64,000 bases of DNA from Natronorubrum thiooxidans (GTDB taxonomy: Archaea; Halobacteriota; Halobacteria; Halobacteriales; Natrialbaceae), in NCBI RefSeq assembly GCF_900156475.1, contig NZ_FTNR01000008.1, positions 124,001 through 188,000 of the forward strand. The letters are read 5' to 3'. The translations under genes and the position numbers were made by a program. Positions within the stretch are counted from its first letter, which is position 1. Each line of letters opens with the position of its first letter. Below are positions 31,076-54,982 of this stretch, one piece after another. Under the pieces are notes generated by a model. That model was not told the origin of the DNA. It did no database searches and saw only the letters and a program-made list of their open reading frames with translations.

Positions 31076-31152
31076 ACGCGACCGGACCGGCGTCGTCTCG
31101 AGCGGTTATGAGTCCGACACGCTTATTCGCGACGCGCGACGAAACACGTGTA

Positions 31153-32817
31153 GTGAGCACCGAGACGCCCGATCCCACCGAAACCGACGCGTTCGAGCAG
31201 GTCTGTGAGACGATCGTCGAGCGAATTCTCGCGGGCGAGATCGAGCGCGACGACGTCGAGACGGCCAAACTCGAGGCCTGTTCGGAGCACTCGGCGCCGA
31301 AGGTGCCGAAGAACTCCGAACTACTCGATTACGCGCCCAACGAGCACCGCGAGGAACTGCAGACGGTCCTCCAGCGCAAACCCGTCCGCACCGCCTCAGG
31401 CGTCTCGCCGGTTGCGATCATGACCTCGCCCGAGCGCTGTCCCCACGGGAAGTGTCTCTACTGTCCCGGCGGCCCCGACTCGGAGTTTTCCTCCTCCCAA
31501 AGCTACACCGGCGAGGAACCCGCCGCGGCCCGCGGCGTCCAGAACGACTACGATCCCTACGGGCAGGTGACGCTGCGACTCGAGCAACTGCGCGAGATCG
31601 GCCACCCCGTCGACAAGGTCGAACTCATCCTGATGGGCGGGACGATGACGGCTCGCAGCCACGACTACCAGGAGTGGTTCGTCAAGCGAGCGCTCGAGGC
31701 GATGAACGACTACGACGTCGAAAAAGAGCCCGAACCGGCCGAAGGCGAAAGCTTCGCACAGGACTCATCGGAGTACGAATGGCAGTACGTCGAGGACGTC
31801 ATCGAGGAAAACGAGACGGCCGATATTCGGAACATCGGGACGACCTTCGAGACCAAACCCGACTGGTGTGACCCCGAACAGATCGACCGGATGCTCGAAC
31901 TCGGCGGGACGAAAGTCGAGGTCGGCGTCCAGACCACTTACGAGCGGATCAACCGGGAGATGCACCGGGGCCACGGCGTCGCCGAATCCATCGAGGCCAA
32001 CCAGCGCCTGCGCGACTCGGCGTTCAAAGTCGGCTTCCACATGATGCCCGGCCAGCCCGGAATGTCAAAGGAGATGTGTCTCGAGGATTTCCGGCGGATC
32101 TTCGAGCAAGCGCAGTGGAAACCGGATTATCTGAAGATCTACCCGACGCTGATCGTCCGCGGGACGGCGACCTACGACTGGTGGCACAACGGCGAGTACG
32201 ACCCGCTCGACAACGACGAGGCCGCCGACCTCGTCGCCGAGATCAAGGACATGATCCCGCGCTACACCCGACTCCAGCGGGTCCAGCGCGACATTCCGGC
32301 CGACTTCATCGACGCCGGCGTCTGGAAGTCCAATCTCAGACAGCTCGCTCGCAAACGGATGGACGAACATGGCTGGGAGTGTGAGTGTATCCGCTGTCGC
32401 GAGGCCGGCATGAACGACGCCGAACCCGAGGAGATCGACCTTGACGTGATGACCTACGACGCCTGTGGCGGGACGGAACACTTCATCTCGATCGAGGACT
32501 TCGACCAGGACCTCCTGATCGGCTTCTGTCGGCTCCGGTTCCCGAACGACCCGGTCCGGCCGGAACTCGAGAACGCGGCGCTCGTCCGGGAACTCCACGT
32601 CTACGGATCGGAAGTCGCCGTTGGAACCGACAGCGAACTCGACCAACACCAGCATCAGGGCTACGGCAAGCAACTGATGAATCGTGCCGAGGAACTCGCC
32701 GCCGACGCTGGCTACGACAAAGTCAGCGTCATCTCCGGTATCGGCGCGCGGGAGTACTACCGGGAGAAACTCGGCTACCACCAGGACGGTCCCTACGTCA
32801 GCAAACGACTCCGGTAG
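31153..32817 (+). CDS. elp3: Elp3-family tRNA U34 carboxymethyltransferase (radical SAM + GNAT)
   Basis: 554 residues from GTG 31153, chosen because CTTATTC (31122-31128) lies at -28; ATG 31108 would add 15 residues without family similarity. Radical SAM cluster motif CPHGKCLYCPGG near residue 95, SAM-binding MGGTMTARS, and later GVQTTYERINREMHRGH and HMMPGQPGMS. The C-terminal GNAT domain includes QHQGYGKQLMNRAEELA and the GYHQDGPYVSK end. Archaeal Elp3 acts alone, using acetyl-CoA and SAM to form cm5U at the tRNA wobble position. The zinc cysteines CECIRCREAG between the domains are present. Confidence 0.94.
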   Translation: MSTETPDPTETDAFEQVCETIVERILAGEIERDDVETAKLEACSEHSAPKVPKNSELLDYAPNEHREELQTVLQRKPVRTASGVSPVAIMTSPERCPHGKCLYCPGGPDSEFSSSQSYTGEEPAAARGVQNDYDPYGQVTLRLEQLREIGHPVDKVELILMGGTMTARSHDYQEWFVKRALEAMNDYDVEKEPEPAEGESFAQDSSEYEWQYVEDVIEENETADIRNIGTTFETKPDWCDPEQIDRMLELGGTKVEVGVQTTYERINREMHRGHGVAESIEANQRLRDSAFKVGFHMMPGQPGMSKEMCLEDFRRIFEQAQWKPDYLKIYPTLIVRGTATYDWWHNGEYDPLDNDEAADLVAEIKDMIPRYTRLQRVQRDIPADFIDAGVWKSNLRQLARKRMDEHGWECECIRCREAGMNDAEPEEIDLDVMTYDACGGTEHFISIEDFDQDLLIGFCRLRFPNDPVRPELENAALVRELHVYGSEVAVGTDSELDQHQHQGYGKQLMNRAEELAADAGYDKVSVISGIGAREYYREKLGYHQDGPYVSKRLR

Positions 32818-32930
32818 CACCGGCGGCCGAACTGGCACGCACTGGTCCCCATCACCTCGAGTGCGTGCGCTCGAGAACGGGTAACAATTTCCGGTTGCGG
32901 GGCCCTAATACAATCTTCCACGGCAGAAAA

Positions 32931-32938
32931 TTTATACT
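32931..32938 (+). promoter_or_regulatory. TATA box for the candidate small RNA
   Basis: AAAATTTATACTG-type box; TTTATACT is centred about 26 bases before position 32960, where the first hairpin of the candidate RNA begins. No start codon is positioned for a leaderless mRNA there. Confidence 0.5.
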
Positions 32939-32959
32939 GTGGCAGAGATAACGTTTCAT

Positions 32960-33093
32960 GTGCCGACAATCGTCGGCACCGTTGTCATCACTCCCCACCC
33001 GACAACGGAACTGAGTTGCCTCTCAACACACACCGTAAACTCCCCAACTCGTTCGTCCCCCACCGAACGAGTTCCCCACGGTGTGTCTTTTGT
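32960..33093 (+). ncRNA. Candidate structured small RNA with C-rich loops
   Basis: Seen: (1) hairpin GTGCCGAC-AATC-GTCGGCAC at 32960-32979; (2) CCGTTGTC (32979-32986) paired with GACAACGG (33001-33008), enclosing a 14-nt loop with CTCCCCACCC; (3) outer stem ACACACCGT (33028-33036)/ACGGTGTGT (33078-33086) and inner stem AACTCGTTCG (33046-33055)/CGAACGAGTT (33064-33073), separated by unpaired AAACTCCCC and CCCC, with apical loop TCCCCCAC; (4) CTTTTGT directly after. A TATA box puts the transcription start at the base of hairpin 1. Perfect stems with C-rich unpaired parts are not expected from coding or random sequence. By analogy with bacterial C-rich-loop sRNAs it might pair with G-rich mRNA leaders (inference). 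No known RNA family is recognised; opposite-strand transcription cannot be excluded. Confidence 0.55.
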
Positions 33094-33190: not shown

Positions 33191-33859
33191 ATGGCGTTCA
33201 GCGATCGACTGCTCGAAGACGGGGCTCATATCTGGGACGCACAGCGAGAGCACCCGTTCGTTCGCGAACTCGCGGCGGGAACGCTCGACGAGGCTGCGTT
33301 TCGCCACTGGGTGACACAGGATTATCGGTATCTGCTCGATTACGCGCGGCTGTTTTCGATCGGAGGCTCGAAGGCCCGCGACGAGGCGACGATGACTCAT
33401 CTGCTGGGCGTCGCTCATGAAGTCCTCGACCACGAGATGGACCTCCACCGGGAGTTCGCCGCCGACTACGGTATTTCGCGCGCCGAACTCGAGTCAGTCG
33501 AGAAAGCGCCGACCTGCGTCGCCTACACGAACTTCCTCGTGCGGACGGCCTACGAGGGCACGATCGCCGAAATCGCGGCCGCGCTGTTCCCCTGCATGCA
33601 GGGGTATCTCGACGTGGCCGAACACATGGCTGCCCTCGCCGAGCAAGAGCATCGGTACACGCCCTTTATTGAAATGTACACCAGCGACGAGTTCCGCGAG
33701 GCCACCGCGTGGTGTCGGGAGTTCGTCGACGACTGCGGCGAGCAGTATCCGGGCGACCACGACGCCATGCGCGAGGCGTTTCTCACGAGCGCAAAACTCG
33801 AGTACCGGTTCTGGGAGATGGCCTACACGCTCGAGGGGTGGGAACTGGGTGGATCATAA
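33191..33859 (+). CDS. tenA: TenA-family thiaminase II/aminopyrimidine hydrolase
   Basis: 222 residues, all-helical. Family landmarks: HPFVRELAAGTLDEAAFRHWVTQD near the start, the active-site helix with FPCMQGYLDVAEH (Cys about residue 135, the probable nucleophile of TenA-C type enzymes), and the final SAKLEYRFWEMAY helix carrying the catalytic Glu. TenA enzymes hydrolyse aminopyrimidines in thiamine salvage. A TATAATA box (33157-33163) lies about 31 bases before ATG 33191. No other thiamine gene is adjacent. Confidence 0.9.
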   Translation: MAFSDRLLEDGAHIWDAQREHPFVRELAAGTLDEAAFRHWVTQDYRYLLDYARLFSIGGSKARDEATMTHLLGVAHEVLDHEMDLHREFAADYGISRAELESVEKAPTCVAYTNFLVRTAYEGTIAEIAAALFPCMQGYLDVAEHMAALAEQEHRYTPFIEMYTSDEFREATAWCREFVDDCGEQYPGDHDAMREAFLTSAKLEYRFWEMAYTLEGWELGGS

Positions 33860-33938: not shown

Positions 33939-34112
33939 TTAGCAGTAGTAGACCCAGAAGACGTGCTCATCTGAGCATTCGACTTTCGTGTATTCACCGA
34001 AGGCAGCGACGTACGGGCTGACTTTCAGTTCCACGTCCCGGTCAGGGACTGGGATACTACTGTGCGTCCCACATTTCGGACACGCAACGTCCTGTGTCTC
34101 TGTTACTTGCAT
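33939..34112 (-). CDS. 57-residue CPxCG zinc-finger microprotein
   Basis: Short gene: ATG 34112, TAA at 33941-33939. The protein begins MQVTETQDVACPKCG and ends VFWVYYC. One half zinc knuckle is C11-x2-C14 (CPKCG); Cys46 (VECSDEH) and the C-terminal Cys57 could complete a single Zn site. Small CPxCG proteins are common in haloarchaea and several affect growth or biofilm phenotypes; the role of this one is unknown. An AT-rich TATA stretch (34141-34150, minus-strand sense) lies about 33 bases upstream. It is convergent with tenA, which ends 79 bp away. Confidence 0.75.
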   Translation of the reverse strand: MQVTETQDVACPKCGTHSSIPVPDRDVELKVSPYVAAFGEYTKVECSDEHVFWVYYC

Positions 34113-34183
34113 CACTACCGCCGGCGACTATACATCACGAATAAATATAAACAATGGCTCTGTCGACCTGATAGATAGCCTGC

Positions 34184-34828
34184 TTAGTCGATCGTGACCT
34201 CGAGTTCGAGCACGCCGAGGTAGTCGGGTGCGCCGCCGCCGGTCGTCCGGAACTCCGTCGGCGTCGAGCCGATGTAGTCGTAGAGTTCGGACTGGCTCTG
34301 TGGGATCACCGGCGTGCCGTCGTCGCGTTTGAGATAGGCGGGAGCGTCCGTACTCTGGATTCGCTCGAGTCGCTCGTCCCAGTCGCTGCCCGAGTAGAGG
34401 AAGACGCCGAAGGAAAACCGGCCGGCGGCGAGGGCGTCGTGTTTCGACTCGAAGAGGTCACCCTCTTCGCTCTTGTACTCCTCGTCGCTGACCCACGCGA
34501 GCGCCGCCACATCGTCGGTCTGGAGCAGGTACAGGTCCCAGCCGAGTTGGGCGTCGAACACCGCCCAGGTGTTTCGGGGGCCGATCGTGTCGACTTCGAC
34601 GCTAAAGGCGGGTCGGCCGCGCGCGCCGGCCGGTTCGTGGACGAACGTGGCGTCGTAGCCGGGGGCGCGGATGCCGCGGTCGTGGTAGACGATCCCGTCG
34701 ACGTCGATGTCGGCCTCGAGTTGGTCGACGATGGAGCGAACGGAGAACGCCCCCTCGTCCTCGAGGTGGTCGACGAACGTCTGAAAGCGGGAGACGTCGG
34801 TCCACGGGCGCTCCTCACGCGAACTCAT
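34184..34828 (-). CDS. Haloarchaeal protein of unknown function
   Basis: 214 residues from ATG 34828; the longer upstream frame starts with a basic stretch unlike the rest. Soluble and acidic. Landmarks are WTDVSRFQTFVDHL at the N-terminus, a central RPAFSVEVDTIGPRNTWAVF strand region and SFGVFLYSGSDWDERL. The fold could resemble a restriction-endonuclease-like or nucleotide-binding alpha/beta domain, but I do not recognise a family. It is divergent from rqcH with 186 bp between starts. Confidence 0.7.
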   Translation of the reverse strand: MSSREERPWTDVSRFQTFVDHLEDEGAFSVRSIVDQLEADIDVDGIVYHDRGIRAPGYDATFVHEPAGARGRPAFSVEVDTIGPRNTWAVFDAQLGWDLYLLQTDDVAALAWVSDEEYKSEEGDLFESKHDALAAGRFSFGVFLYSGSDWDERLERIQSTDAPAYLKRDDGTPVIPQSQSELYDYIGSTPTEFRTTGGGAPDYLGVLELEVTID

Positions 34829-35014
34829 CGGCACTCCCCTCCGTATGTTGGCTGGCCGCGGTGGCAAGCGATGTCGACAGCGTCGTACATACCGTTATGG
34901 AGGTACCGGGTGCGGATTAGCCTTTCCGACCGCGGTCTCGACCAGATAGCGCCGTCGCCGCCGACGCCACGTCGGAGCGACACGTCTTTTTGACCGCGCC
35001 GGGCAGGTGTACGT

Positions 35015-37159
35015 ATGGATCCAAAGCGCGAGCTGACGAGCGTCGACCTCGCTGCCCTCGTCGGGGAACTCGGGGCCTACGAGGGCGCAAAGCTCGACAA
35101 GGCGTATCTCTACGGCGACGATCTCGTCCGACTCAAGATGCGAGATTTCGACCGCGGCCGCATCGAACTCATCCTCGAGGTCGGCGAGGTCAAACGCGCC
35201 CACACGGTCGCCCCCGAGCGGGTACCCGATGCCCCCGGGCGACCGCCGCAGTTCGCGATGATGCTCCGGAACCGACTCTCCGGGGCTGACTTCGCCGGCG
35301 TCGAGCAGTACGAGTTCGACCGCATCCTCGAGTTCGTCTTCGAGCGCGAGGACGGCACGACTCGGATCATCGTCGAACTGTTCGGGCAGGGAAACGTCGC
35401 CGTCACCGACGGCGAGTACGAAGTGATCGACTGTCTCGAGACGGTGCGACTCAAGTCCCGAACCGTCGTGCCGGGCTCGCGGTATGAGTTCCCCGACAGC
35501 CGACTCAACCCGCTGACAGTCTCCCGAGAGGTGTTCGACCACGAGATGGAGGATTCGGATACGGACGTCGTCCGAACGCTCGCGACCCAACTCAACTTCG
35601 GCGGGCTCTACGCCGAGGAGCTCTGTACCCGCGCCGGCGTCGAGAAAGGGATGGATATCGATGACGCCGACGAGGACGACTACGATCGGCTCTACGAGGC
35701 CGTCGAACGGCTCGCGCTCGACTTGCGAAACGGAAACTTCGACCCGCGACTCTACCTCGAGGACGGGGAAGACGGCGACGATGACGACGAGAACGACGAC
35801 GAGAACGCCCGCGTCGTCGACGCGACGCCGTTCCCACTCGAGGAACACGCTGAACTGGCGGCCGAGCCCTACGACTCGTTTTTGACTGCGCTGGACGACT
35901 ACTTCTTCCGGCTGGAACTCGACGACGAGGAGGAGCCGGACCCAACGACCCAGAAGCCCGATTTCGGCGAGGAGATCGCCAAATACGAGCGGATCATTGA
36001 CCAACAGCAGGGCGCGATCGAGGGGTTCGAACAGCAGGCCGACGACCTTCGGGAGCAAGCTGAGTTGCTGTACGCCGAGTACGGTCTCGTCGACGACATC
36101 CTCTCGACGATTCAGGAGGCCCGCGCACAGGACCGTCCCTGGGACGAGATCGAATCGCGCTTCGAGGAGGGGGCCGAGCGCGGCATCGAGGCCGCCGAGG
36201 CGGTCGCCAACATTGACAGCAGTGAGGGGATCGTGACGGTCGACATCGACGGCGAGCGGATCGACCTCGTCGCCCACGATGGCGTCGAGCAAAACGCCGA
36301 CCGGCTCTACACCGAGGCAAAGCGCATCGGGGAGAAAAAGAAGGGCGCGCTGGCCGCCATCGAGGACACCCGAGAGGATCTCGAGGACGCAAAGCGTCGC
36401 CGCGACGAGTGGGAGGCCGACGACGAGGACGACGAGCAAGCCGACGATGAGGAAGCCGAGGAGAAAAACTGGCTCGAGGTGCCGTCGATCCCCATTCGGG
36501 AGAACGAGCCGTGGTTCGATCGCTTCCGCTGGTTCCACACCAGCGACGGCTATCTCGTGATCGGGGGTCGCAACGCCGACCAGAACGAGGACCTCGTCAA
36601 GAAGTATCTCGAGCCCGGCGATACGGTCCTGCACACGCAGGCCCACGGCGGCCCCGTCACCGTATTGAAGGCGACGGACCCGAGCGAAGCCTCGTCCTCG
36701 GACATCGAGTTGCCCGACTCGAGTATCGAGGAGGCTGCCCAGTTTGCCGTCTCCTACTCGTCGGTCTGGAAGGACGGCCGCTATGCGGGTGACGTCTACG
36801 CCGTCGACTCCGATCAGGTGACGAAAACGCCCGAAAGCGGCGAGTACCTCGAGAAAGGTGGCTTCGCGATCCGGGGCGACCGCACCTACCACCGCGATAC
36901 GCCGGTCGGCGTCGCGGTCGGCATCCAGTGTGAGCCCTACACCCGCGTCATCGGCGGCCCGCCATCGGCAATCGAAGGAACCGCGGAGTCGATGATCGAA
37001 CTCGAGCCGGGACGCTACGCCCAGGCGGACACGGCAAAGCGACTCTATCGGCGCTTCCGTGAGGAGTTCGAAGACGAGTCGTTCGTTCGCAAGATCGCCA
37101 GTCCCGATCGAATTCAACACTTCATGCCGCCGGGCGGCAGCCGGATCGCCGAGGAGTGA
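35015..37159 (+). CDS. rqcH: Ribosome rescue factor RqcH (Rqc2/NEMF homologue)
   Basis: 714 residues. The NFACT-N domain opens the chain (ELTSVDLAALVGELGAYEGA, then FAMMLRNRLSGA), followed by helix-hairpin-helix and a long charged coiled coil, which contains acidic haloarchaeal insertions (DGDDDDENDDEN and DDEDDEQADDEEAEE). The NFACT-R domain is at about 495-600 (WFDRFRWFHTSDGYLVIGG, GRNADQNE). RqcH binds obstructed large ribosomal subunits with tRNA-Ala and adds alanine tails that mark the nascent chain for degradation. Pelota, which splits stalled ribosomes upstream of this step, is encoded 6 kb away in the same window. Start ATG 35015. Confidence 0.93.
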   Translation: MDPKRELTSVDLAALVGELGAYEGAKLDKAYLYGDDLVRLKMRDFDRGRIELILEVGEVKRAHTVAPERVPDAPGRPPQFAMMLRNRLSGADFAGVEQYEFDRILEFVFEREDGTTRIIVELFGQGNVAVTDGEYEVIDCLETVRLKSRTVVPGSRYEFPDSRLNPLTVSREVFDHEMEDSDTDVVRTLATQLNFGGLYAEELCTRAGVEKGMDIDDADEDDYDRLYEAVERLALDLRNGNFDPRLYLEDGEDGDDDDENDDENARVVDATPFPLEEHAELAAEPYDSFLTALDDYFFRLELDDEEEPDPTTQKPDFGEEIAKYERIIDQQQGAIEGFEQQADDLREQAELLYAEYGLVDDILSTIQEARAQDRPWDEIESRFEEGAERGIEAAEAVANIDSSEGIVTVDIDGERIDLVAHDGVEQNADRLYTEAKRIGEKKKGALAAIEDTREDLEDAKRRRDEWEADDEDDEQADDEEAEEKNWLEVPSIPIRENEPWFDRFRWFHTSDGYLVIGGRNADQNEDLVKKYLEPGDTVLHTQAHGGPVTVLKATDPSEASSSDIELPDSSIEEAAQFAVSYSSVWKDGRYAGDVYAVDSDQVTKTPESGEYLEKGGFAIRGDRTYHRDTPVGVAVGIQCEPYTRVIGGPPSAIEGTAESMIELEPGRYAQADTAKRLYRRFREEFEDESFVRKIASPDRIQHFMPPGGSRIAEE

Positions 37160-54292: not shown

Positions 54293-54982
54293 CTGGAGAG
54301 ACACGCTCGAGAGAGGCATGATATTTTTTGCGAATATAGTTAGTCGAGACAGAAAACTGGCCTCGGCACTCATAGGGCTCGTCACGGCCGGGTGCCGAGT
54401 CCGGCTCGGAGCGAGTGAATCGTCATCGGCCGGGTGATGCTACGGCAGTCGCTCCAAAGACGGTTTGGATCTCTCGAGCAAAATCGAACTCCTTACGCGC
54501 TGCGTGTCGATTCCGACCCGGCGTTAGCGAACGCGGTGTTCCACTCGTCCATCAGGTTCTCGAGTCGGGCCGTGTTCCGGTGGGAGAACGTTCGGGGAGC
54601 CATATCGGTCGCCGTCCGTGGGTCTTCGGTAACGGCAGTCGTGTCGGCTGGCGTCGTTCGCGTGCGGTTGGTGGGTTGCGGTTCGGGCTCGGTTCGGGTC
54701 TGCAAGTGTTGTGTGCTCATGTCGGTCGGGTAGTGTGTGTCTGTCGTTGGAAACGATGCTGGGACTCGTCGGGAGCGGCAAATTCAGGCTGCTACGTGTA
54801 CGACCGACATCTGTACTCACCCCTACAGACTCCTTGGTTATAAAAGTTCATGATAAACCATCCTCGCGGGAACAGATGTATGAAAATAAATATCTAGGGG
54901 CGAGTTGACACGGTGCGTGGCGGCCGGCGACTCGACACCCCCATGGTGATTGCTTTTGTCCAGTGACGTGGGACCAACGGTC
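54293..54982. other. 690-bp region with at most one small gene
   Basis: No recognised domain in any frame. An AT-rich segment at 54835-54895 contains TATA-like sequences on both strands. A minus-strand frame at 54493-54720 is entered separately with low confidence. Confidence 0.4.
54493..54720 (-). CDS. Possible small Thr-rich protein
   Basis: 75 codons, ATG 54720 to TAA. The first 50 residues are Thr/Arg/Pro-rich and disordered; the last 25 (NTARLENLMDEWNTAFANAG) could form an amphipathic helix. No family is recognised and base use is not decisive. It may be a minor protein or an accidental frame. Confidence 0.3.
   Translation of the reverse strand: MSTQHLQTRTEPEPQPTNRTRTTPADTTAVTEDPRTATDMAPRTFSHRNTARLENLMDEWNTAFANAGSESTRSA

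Follow-up and report, generated by a model that had tools for sequence, protein, structure and literature searches.

The intergenic stretch that follows elp3 in Natronorubrum thiooxidans (positions 32925-33093, plus strand, of the 64,000-nucleotide stretch of DNA analysed here, hereafter the window) combines a promoter with perfect hairpins that carry C-rich loops, which raises the question of whether it is a small RNA gene in its own right or part of a neighbouring message, and how such an RNA might act. A preliminary description made from the sequence alone had proposed a small RNA at this site, and every element it named is present: the TATA element, both 8-bp hairpins, the 9 + 10 bp two-part hairpin, the loops and the CTTTTGT run. 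The minimum-energy fold adds a small hairpin, H3, that the first reading missed. The features are the following.

31108..32817, plus strand: elp3, tRNA uridine-34 modification enzyme (TIGR01211, E = 2.5e-239), the usual upstream neighbour
32906..32914, plus strand: AT-box TAATACAAT, some 20 bp upstream of the TATA element
32926..32936, plus strand: BRE/TATA element GAAAATTTATA, kept as AAAWTTTAT upstream of H1 in homologues
32959..33092, plus strand: structured small RNA of about 134 nt with both ends predicted, identified by fold, covariation and covariance-model matches
32960..32979, plus strand: hairpin H1, 8 bp, at the predicted 5' end, with near-invariant TGCCGAC/GTCGGCA
32979..33008, plus strand: hairpin H2, 8 bp, strands CCGTTGTC/GACAACGG, loop ATCACTCCCCACCC
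33012..33025, plus strand: small hairpin H3, TGAG-TTGCCT-CTCA
33028..33086, plus strand: two-part long hairpin H4+H5, internal loops AAACTCCCC and CCCC, apical loop TCCCCCAC
33028-33036/33078-33086, plus strand: H4, the 9-bp base of the long hairpin
33046-33055/33064-33073, plus strand: H5, its 10-bp apical part
33087..33093, plus strand: CTTTTGT run, putative terminator, directly after the H4 base
33191..33859, plus strand: tenA, thiaminase II (TIGR04306), the downstream neighbour in some genera only

The distribution of this element was traced at increasing sensitivity. A DNA search of 60 relatives returned matches in 11 further genomes, of which one fell in a coding region by chance. A covariance model (R1) derived from 11 sequences and a hand-specified structure gave many more, and a second model built from 50 sequences (R2) found matches in 54 of the 125 genomes of Natrialbaceae, spread over 9 of 29 genera. 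A combined promoter and hairpin pattern found 8 matches in 145 genomes, all of them this locus or its homologues, as compared with none for the reversed control; the homologous records found by pattern come from Natronorubrum, Natrinema, Haloterrigena and Natronolimnohabitans. Across the 392 genomes of the order, matches outside Natrialbaceae were weak (E 3e-4 to 1e-2) and the TATA element was absent from every one inspected, so these borderline candidates were treated as false and rejected as homologues. The region 3' of elp3, read in 39 other genomes in a synteny search, likewise held nothing convincing. Two Natronorubrum genomes, G001 and G004, have no R2 match, and in G004 a decayed remnant (GAGTTGCCTG..GAACCGTTCGCCCCACCGAGG..GGCGTGCGTTTTG, locus L119) that lacks the promoter and H1 lies a few hundred nucleotides upstream of tenA, which together indicate that the gene can be lost.

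The predicted RNA is folded far more stably than its composition requires. The minimum-energy fold of 32959-33092 reaches -51.3 kcal/mol as compared with -26.7 +/- 3.4 for shuffled sequences (z = -7.3), none of the 200 shuffles doing as well, and the entire 169-nt stretch gives z = -5.7. Substitutions that break the stems without compensation, named in the preliminary description as the observation that would count against it, were looked for and the opposite was seen. In a purely sequence-based alignment of 11 close homologues (A2, also the source of R1), 90.6% of cells pair and double changes occur at 8 pairs, with 13 doubly changed cells versus 6.1 in shuffles that ignore the tree. The larger alignments, which lean towards the model because they were fitted to it, show compensatory double changes at 25 of 37 pairs among 50 homologues (A3; 178 cells versus 52.2 in the same kind of shuffle) and at 23 of 37 pairs among 53 (A4; 183 versus 57.7). 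When the partners were slid by 1-3 columns as a control, pairing fell to 22-50%.

The hairpins differ in how they have evolved across the 53 homologues. H1 is paired in 95% of cells with changes of the G-U type only, H2 is paired in 91% with double changes at three pairs, and the long hairpin has double changes at all five outer basal pairs of H4 and all nine apical pairs of H5. H3 shows double changes at four of four pairs but only 76% of its cells pair. When 16 Natrinema sequences (genus g8) were folded de novo to a consensus, with the window excluded, H1, H2, H4 and H5 were recovered and H3 was not predicted. Many homologues also carry a stretch rich in T or TC after or near H4. More drastic rearrangements are found in two genera. 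In genus g7 the stems differ and there is an extra hairpin, with loops that still read UCUCCCC, UUCCCC and UCCCCCC. In genus g3 (loci L074, L081, L085 and L088) a closing stem that pairs GATCACA, which follows H1, with TGTGATC at the 3' end appears to take the place of H2. This altered topology within the family is clear in L074, where C-rich loops persist, and weaker in L081.

A promoter of fixed geometry precedes the hairpins. The AAAWTTTAT element lies at -31..-23 (+/-1 nt) before H1 in 53 of 53 homologues, a few with one altered base, and in the alignment on H1 an A and a T are invariant at two of its columns. From this spacing a transcript would probably start at H1. Further upstream, the A+T fraction in the 53 homologues rises to 0.7-0.94 at -54..-47 versus about 0.4 in flanking columns, and this AT-box may be bound by an activator of the sRNA promoter. 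A preference for A or T is also evident at -8/-7 and -5..-3.

Besides H1 and the promoter, the most constant trait of the family is its C-rich loops. A run of at least four consecutive C occurs in the H2 loop of 49 and in the apical loop of 45 of the 53 homologues, counts that are not independent because the species are related, and C makes up 53% and G 11% of unpaired positions as compared with 36% each of paired ones. The runs are retained even where stem sequences were replaced, supporting the earlier proposal that the loops matter.

How might such an RNA act? RNA polymerase would start about 25 nt past the conserved TATA element, so that the transcript would begin at H1, and would probably stop at the U-run after the long hairpin, yielding a rigid set of hairpins that displays the C-rich loops CUCCCCA and UCCCCCA. 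These loops would most likely seed pairing with G-rich segments in target mRNAs, altering their translation or stability, as do bacterial sRNAs with C-rich loops; the base-pairing in trans, the targets and the sign of the effect we infer alike. Pairing of the loops with G-rich mRNA sites is our best guess from the anatomy, and the full proposal, a stand-alone sRNA gene acting in this manner, we regard as evenly balanced between right and wrong. G-rich ribosome-binding sites, raised in the preliminary description from bacterial analogues, would be one class of candidate partner. In haloarchaea, however, a large number of mRNAs lack leaders, and G-runs are common in genomes as GC-rich as these, so that the C-loops alone would give little specificity. 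With so many leaderless mRNAs, the G-rich partners would be expected within coding sequence, in 3' regions or among the minority of mRNAs that do have leaders. That the family is an archaeal one with partners of this sort, acting via several C-rich loops like sX13 and the staphylococcal UCCC RNAs and evolved independently of them, is plausible although somewhat short of an even chance.

A conserved target was sought in three places, the elp3 start region and the complements of the H3 segment and the H2 loop, and none was found. The 5' region of elp3 was rejected as duplex energies in 17 species were not consistently better than those of control windows, and the H3-segment complement was rejected as an antisense site as no conserved second site was found in 10 genomes of the genus. 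The complement of the H2 loop, GGTGGGGAGT, occurs at 40 sites in four genomes versus 13 for the reversed control, and we do not take these sites as evidence of targeting because their contexts look like coding sequence.

The main rival to loop pairing is protein binding, which several loops sharing one motif would also fit. The same RNA might be a decoy or scaffold whose repeated UCCCC loops titrate or recruit, for example, a KH-domain protein, and no mRNA would be paired. The outcome of the target searches is consistent with this possibility, as is the presence of the same short motif in two to four loops that are kept while the stems change, and among the 53 homologues both H1 and the 5' side of H2 keep their sequence and not just their pairing, as would be expected of a protein site. 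However, no candidate protein was identified, the number of loops and the length of the C-runs vary, and the studied RNAs with such a layout, sX13 and IsrR, act by base-pairing; we consider a decoy or scaffold rather unlikely.

The gene neighbourhood bears on whether there is a separate RNA at all, as the hairpins might instead belong to a 3' UTR or terminator of elp3 or to a tenA leader. In most homologues the element lies just 3' of elp3 on the same strand, at a distance of 93-267 nt in the 17 loci measured, as such a cis-acting element would. Yet it is preceded in every homologue by its own TATA element at fixed spacing, and its neighbours are not constant. In Natronorubrum and close genera the element does sit where the preliminary description placed it, with elp3 on one side and tenA on the other; in whole genera besides, Natrinema among them, tenA does not adjoin it, and usually the elp3 side alone is kept. 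Three loci of genus g3 (L088, L112 and L116) have the sRNA away from elp3, beside a homologue of a 227-aa gene of the window, and genome G036 carries a second copy with its promoter on another contig, beside neither elp3 nor tenA (L092:2974-3105, minus strand). A TPP riboswitch for tenA, considered as a specific candidate, was rejected with no Rfam match in the window or the locus and tenA not a conserved neighbour. A cis-acting role is thus improbable. Comparison of the sequences establishes the gene unit, its fixed promoter spacing, its fold and its retained C-rich loops. Covariation, promoter spacing and synteny across the 53 homologues lend strong support to the earlier view of a small RNA gene that has a promoter of its own and hairpins under selection. 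The 227-aa protein of the window, encoded at 34187-34867 on the minus strand and followed by rqcH at 35015-37156, has no Pfam or NCBIfam match, and a 58-aa Brz-type zinc-ribbon protein (PF23454) is encoded near the sRNA and tenA at 33942-34115 on the minus strand.

A functional transcript from the opposite strand, displaying G-rich loops, is very improbable. Perfect hairpins fold on both strands, and the minus strand does reach z = -4.2, but the TATA element precedes the plus-strand RNA and the U-run is on the plus strand. Counted over all well-aligned pairs, there are 102 G-U cells to 60 A-C cells, and a single H2 pair has 28 of the former and none of the latter. This balance favours the plus strand, though only moderately because the A-C cells cluster at helix ends. 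Open frames exist, including a 69-codon GTG frame on the plus strand, but the homologues differ by indels whose lengths are not divisible by three, and their substitutions follow base-pairing, which makes an encoded small protein scarcely credible and led us to reject a coding gene, in agreement with the initial reading that no protein frame was convincing. A mobile repeat was also considered and rejected.

The nearest functional parallels are bacterial. The host of sX13 in Xanthomonas is high-GC, like that of the haloarchaeal sRNA. Both RNAs occupy a fixed site beside a housekeeping gene, polA for sX13 and elp3 here, and both have stable stem-loops with CCCC or CCCCC loops (PMC3771888). The CCCC loops of sX13 act on GGGG motifs, and targets with such motifs have been tested (PMC3771888). 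In contrast, sX13 is bacterial and no sequence relation to the haloarchaeal RNA, itself without an Rfam match, was seen. The second parallel, staphylococcal IsrR, has three C-rich regions, and its authors argue that C-runs discriminate well in AT-rich genomes (PMC9410917), from which it follows that a GC-rich archaeon would need further pairing or a protein for specificity. IsrR differs in belonging to a bacterium with an AT-rich genome, where G-runs mark Shine-Dalgarno sites, and in having known targets and Fur control (PMC9410917). Like the members of this sX13/IsrR-like class, the haloarchaeal RNA has several hairpins whose loops carry runs of at least 3-4 C. Among archaeal RNAs, sRNA132 of Haloferax volcanii is likewise haloarchaeal and intergenic, measures 138 nt, and has a BRE/TATA of its own as well as conserved synteny, but it is reported only in Haloferax, has two stems with a pyrimidine-rich linker and finds its partner in a 3' UTR (PMC6560208). 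On this description it resembles the present RNA in size and gene layout but has another structure, and no confident covariance-model match was found outside Natrialbaceae in the 392 genomes of the order.

Covariation supports a structure across genera for few archaeal sRNAs, and most have no known mechanism. The predicted promoter, supported fold, candidate active motif, natural losses in two Natronorubrum genomes and presence in many species therefore make the rules of archaeal sRNA-target recognition directly testable here. Pairing of the C-loops with G-rich mRNA sites, if it occurs, would bring to archaea a mode of control known from bacteria; if the loops bind a protein instead, the family may reveal an archaeal sRNA partner.

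Searches of Rfam 15 gave no match to the sRNA in the window at gathering score or at its locus with E<=5, and for a Natrinema homologue only a chance match (E = 1.1); the RNA was not reported in the openly licensed literature searched. From these comparisons we judge the structured sRNA family to be genuine and new to Rfam and to that literature, and rate it a new RNA family of a known kind, the intergenic regulatory sRNA. The sole Rfam match in the window is the C/D box RNA sR-tMet (RF02163, 67.6 bits), at 54359-54431 on the minus strand.
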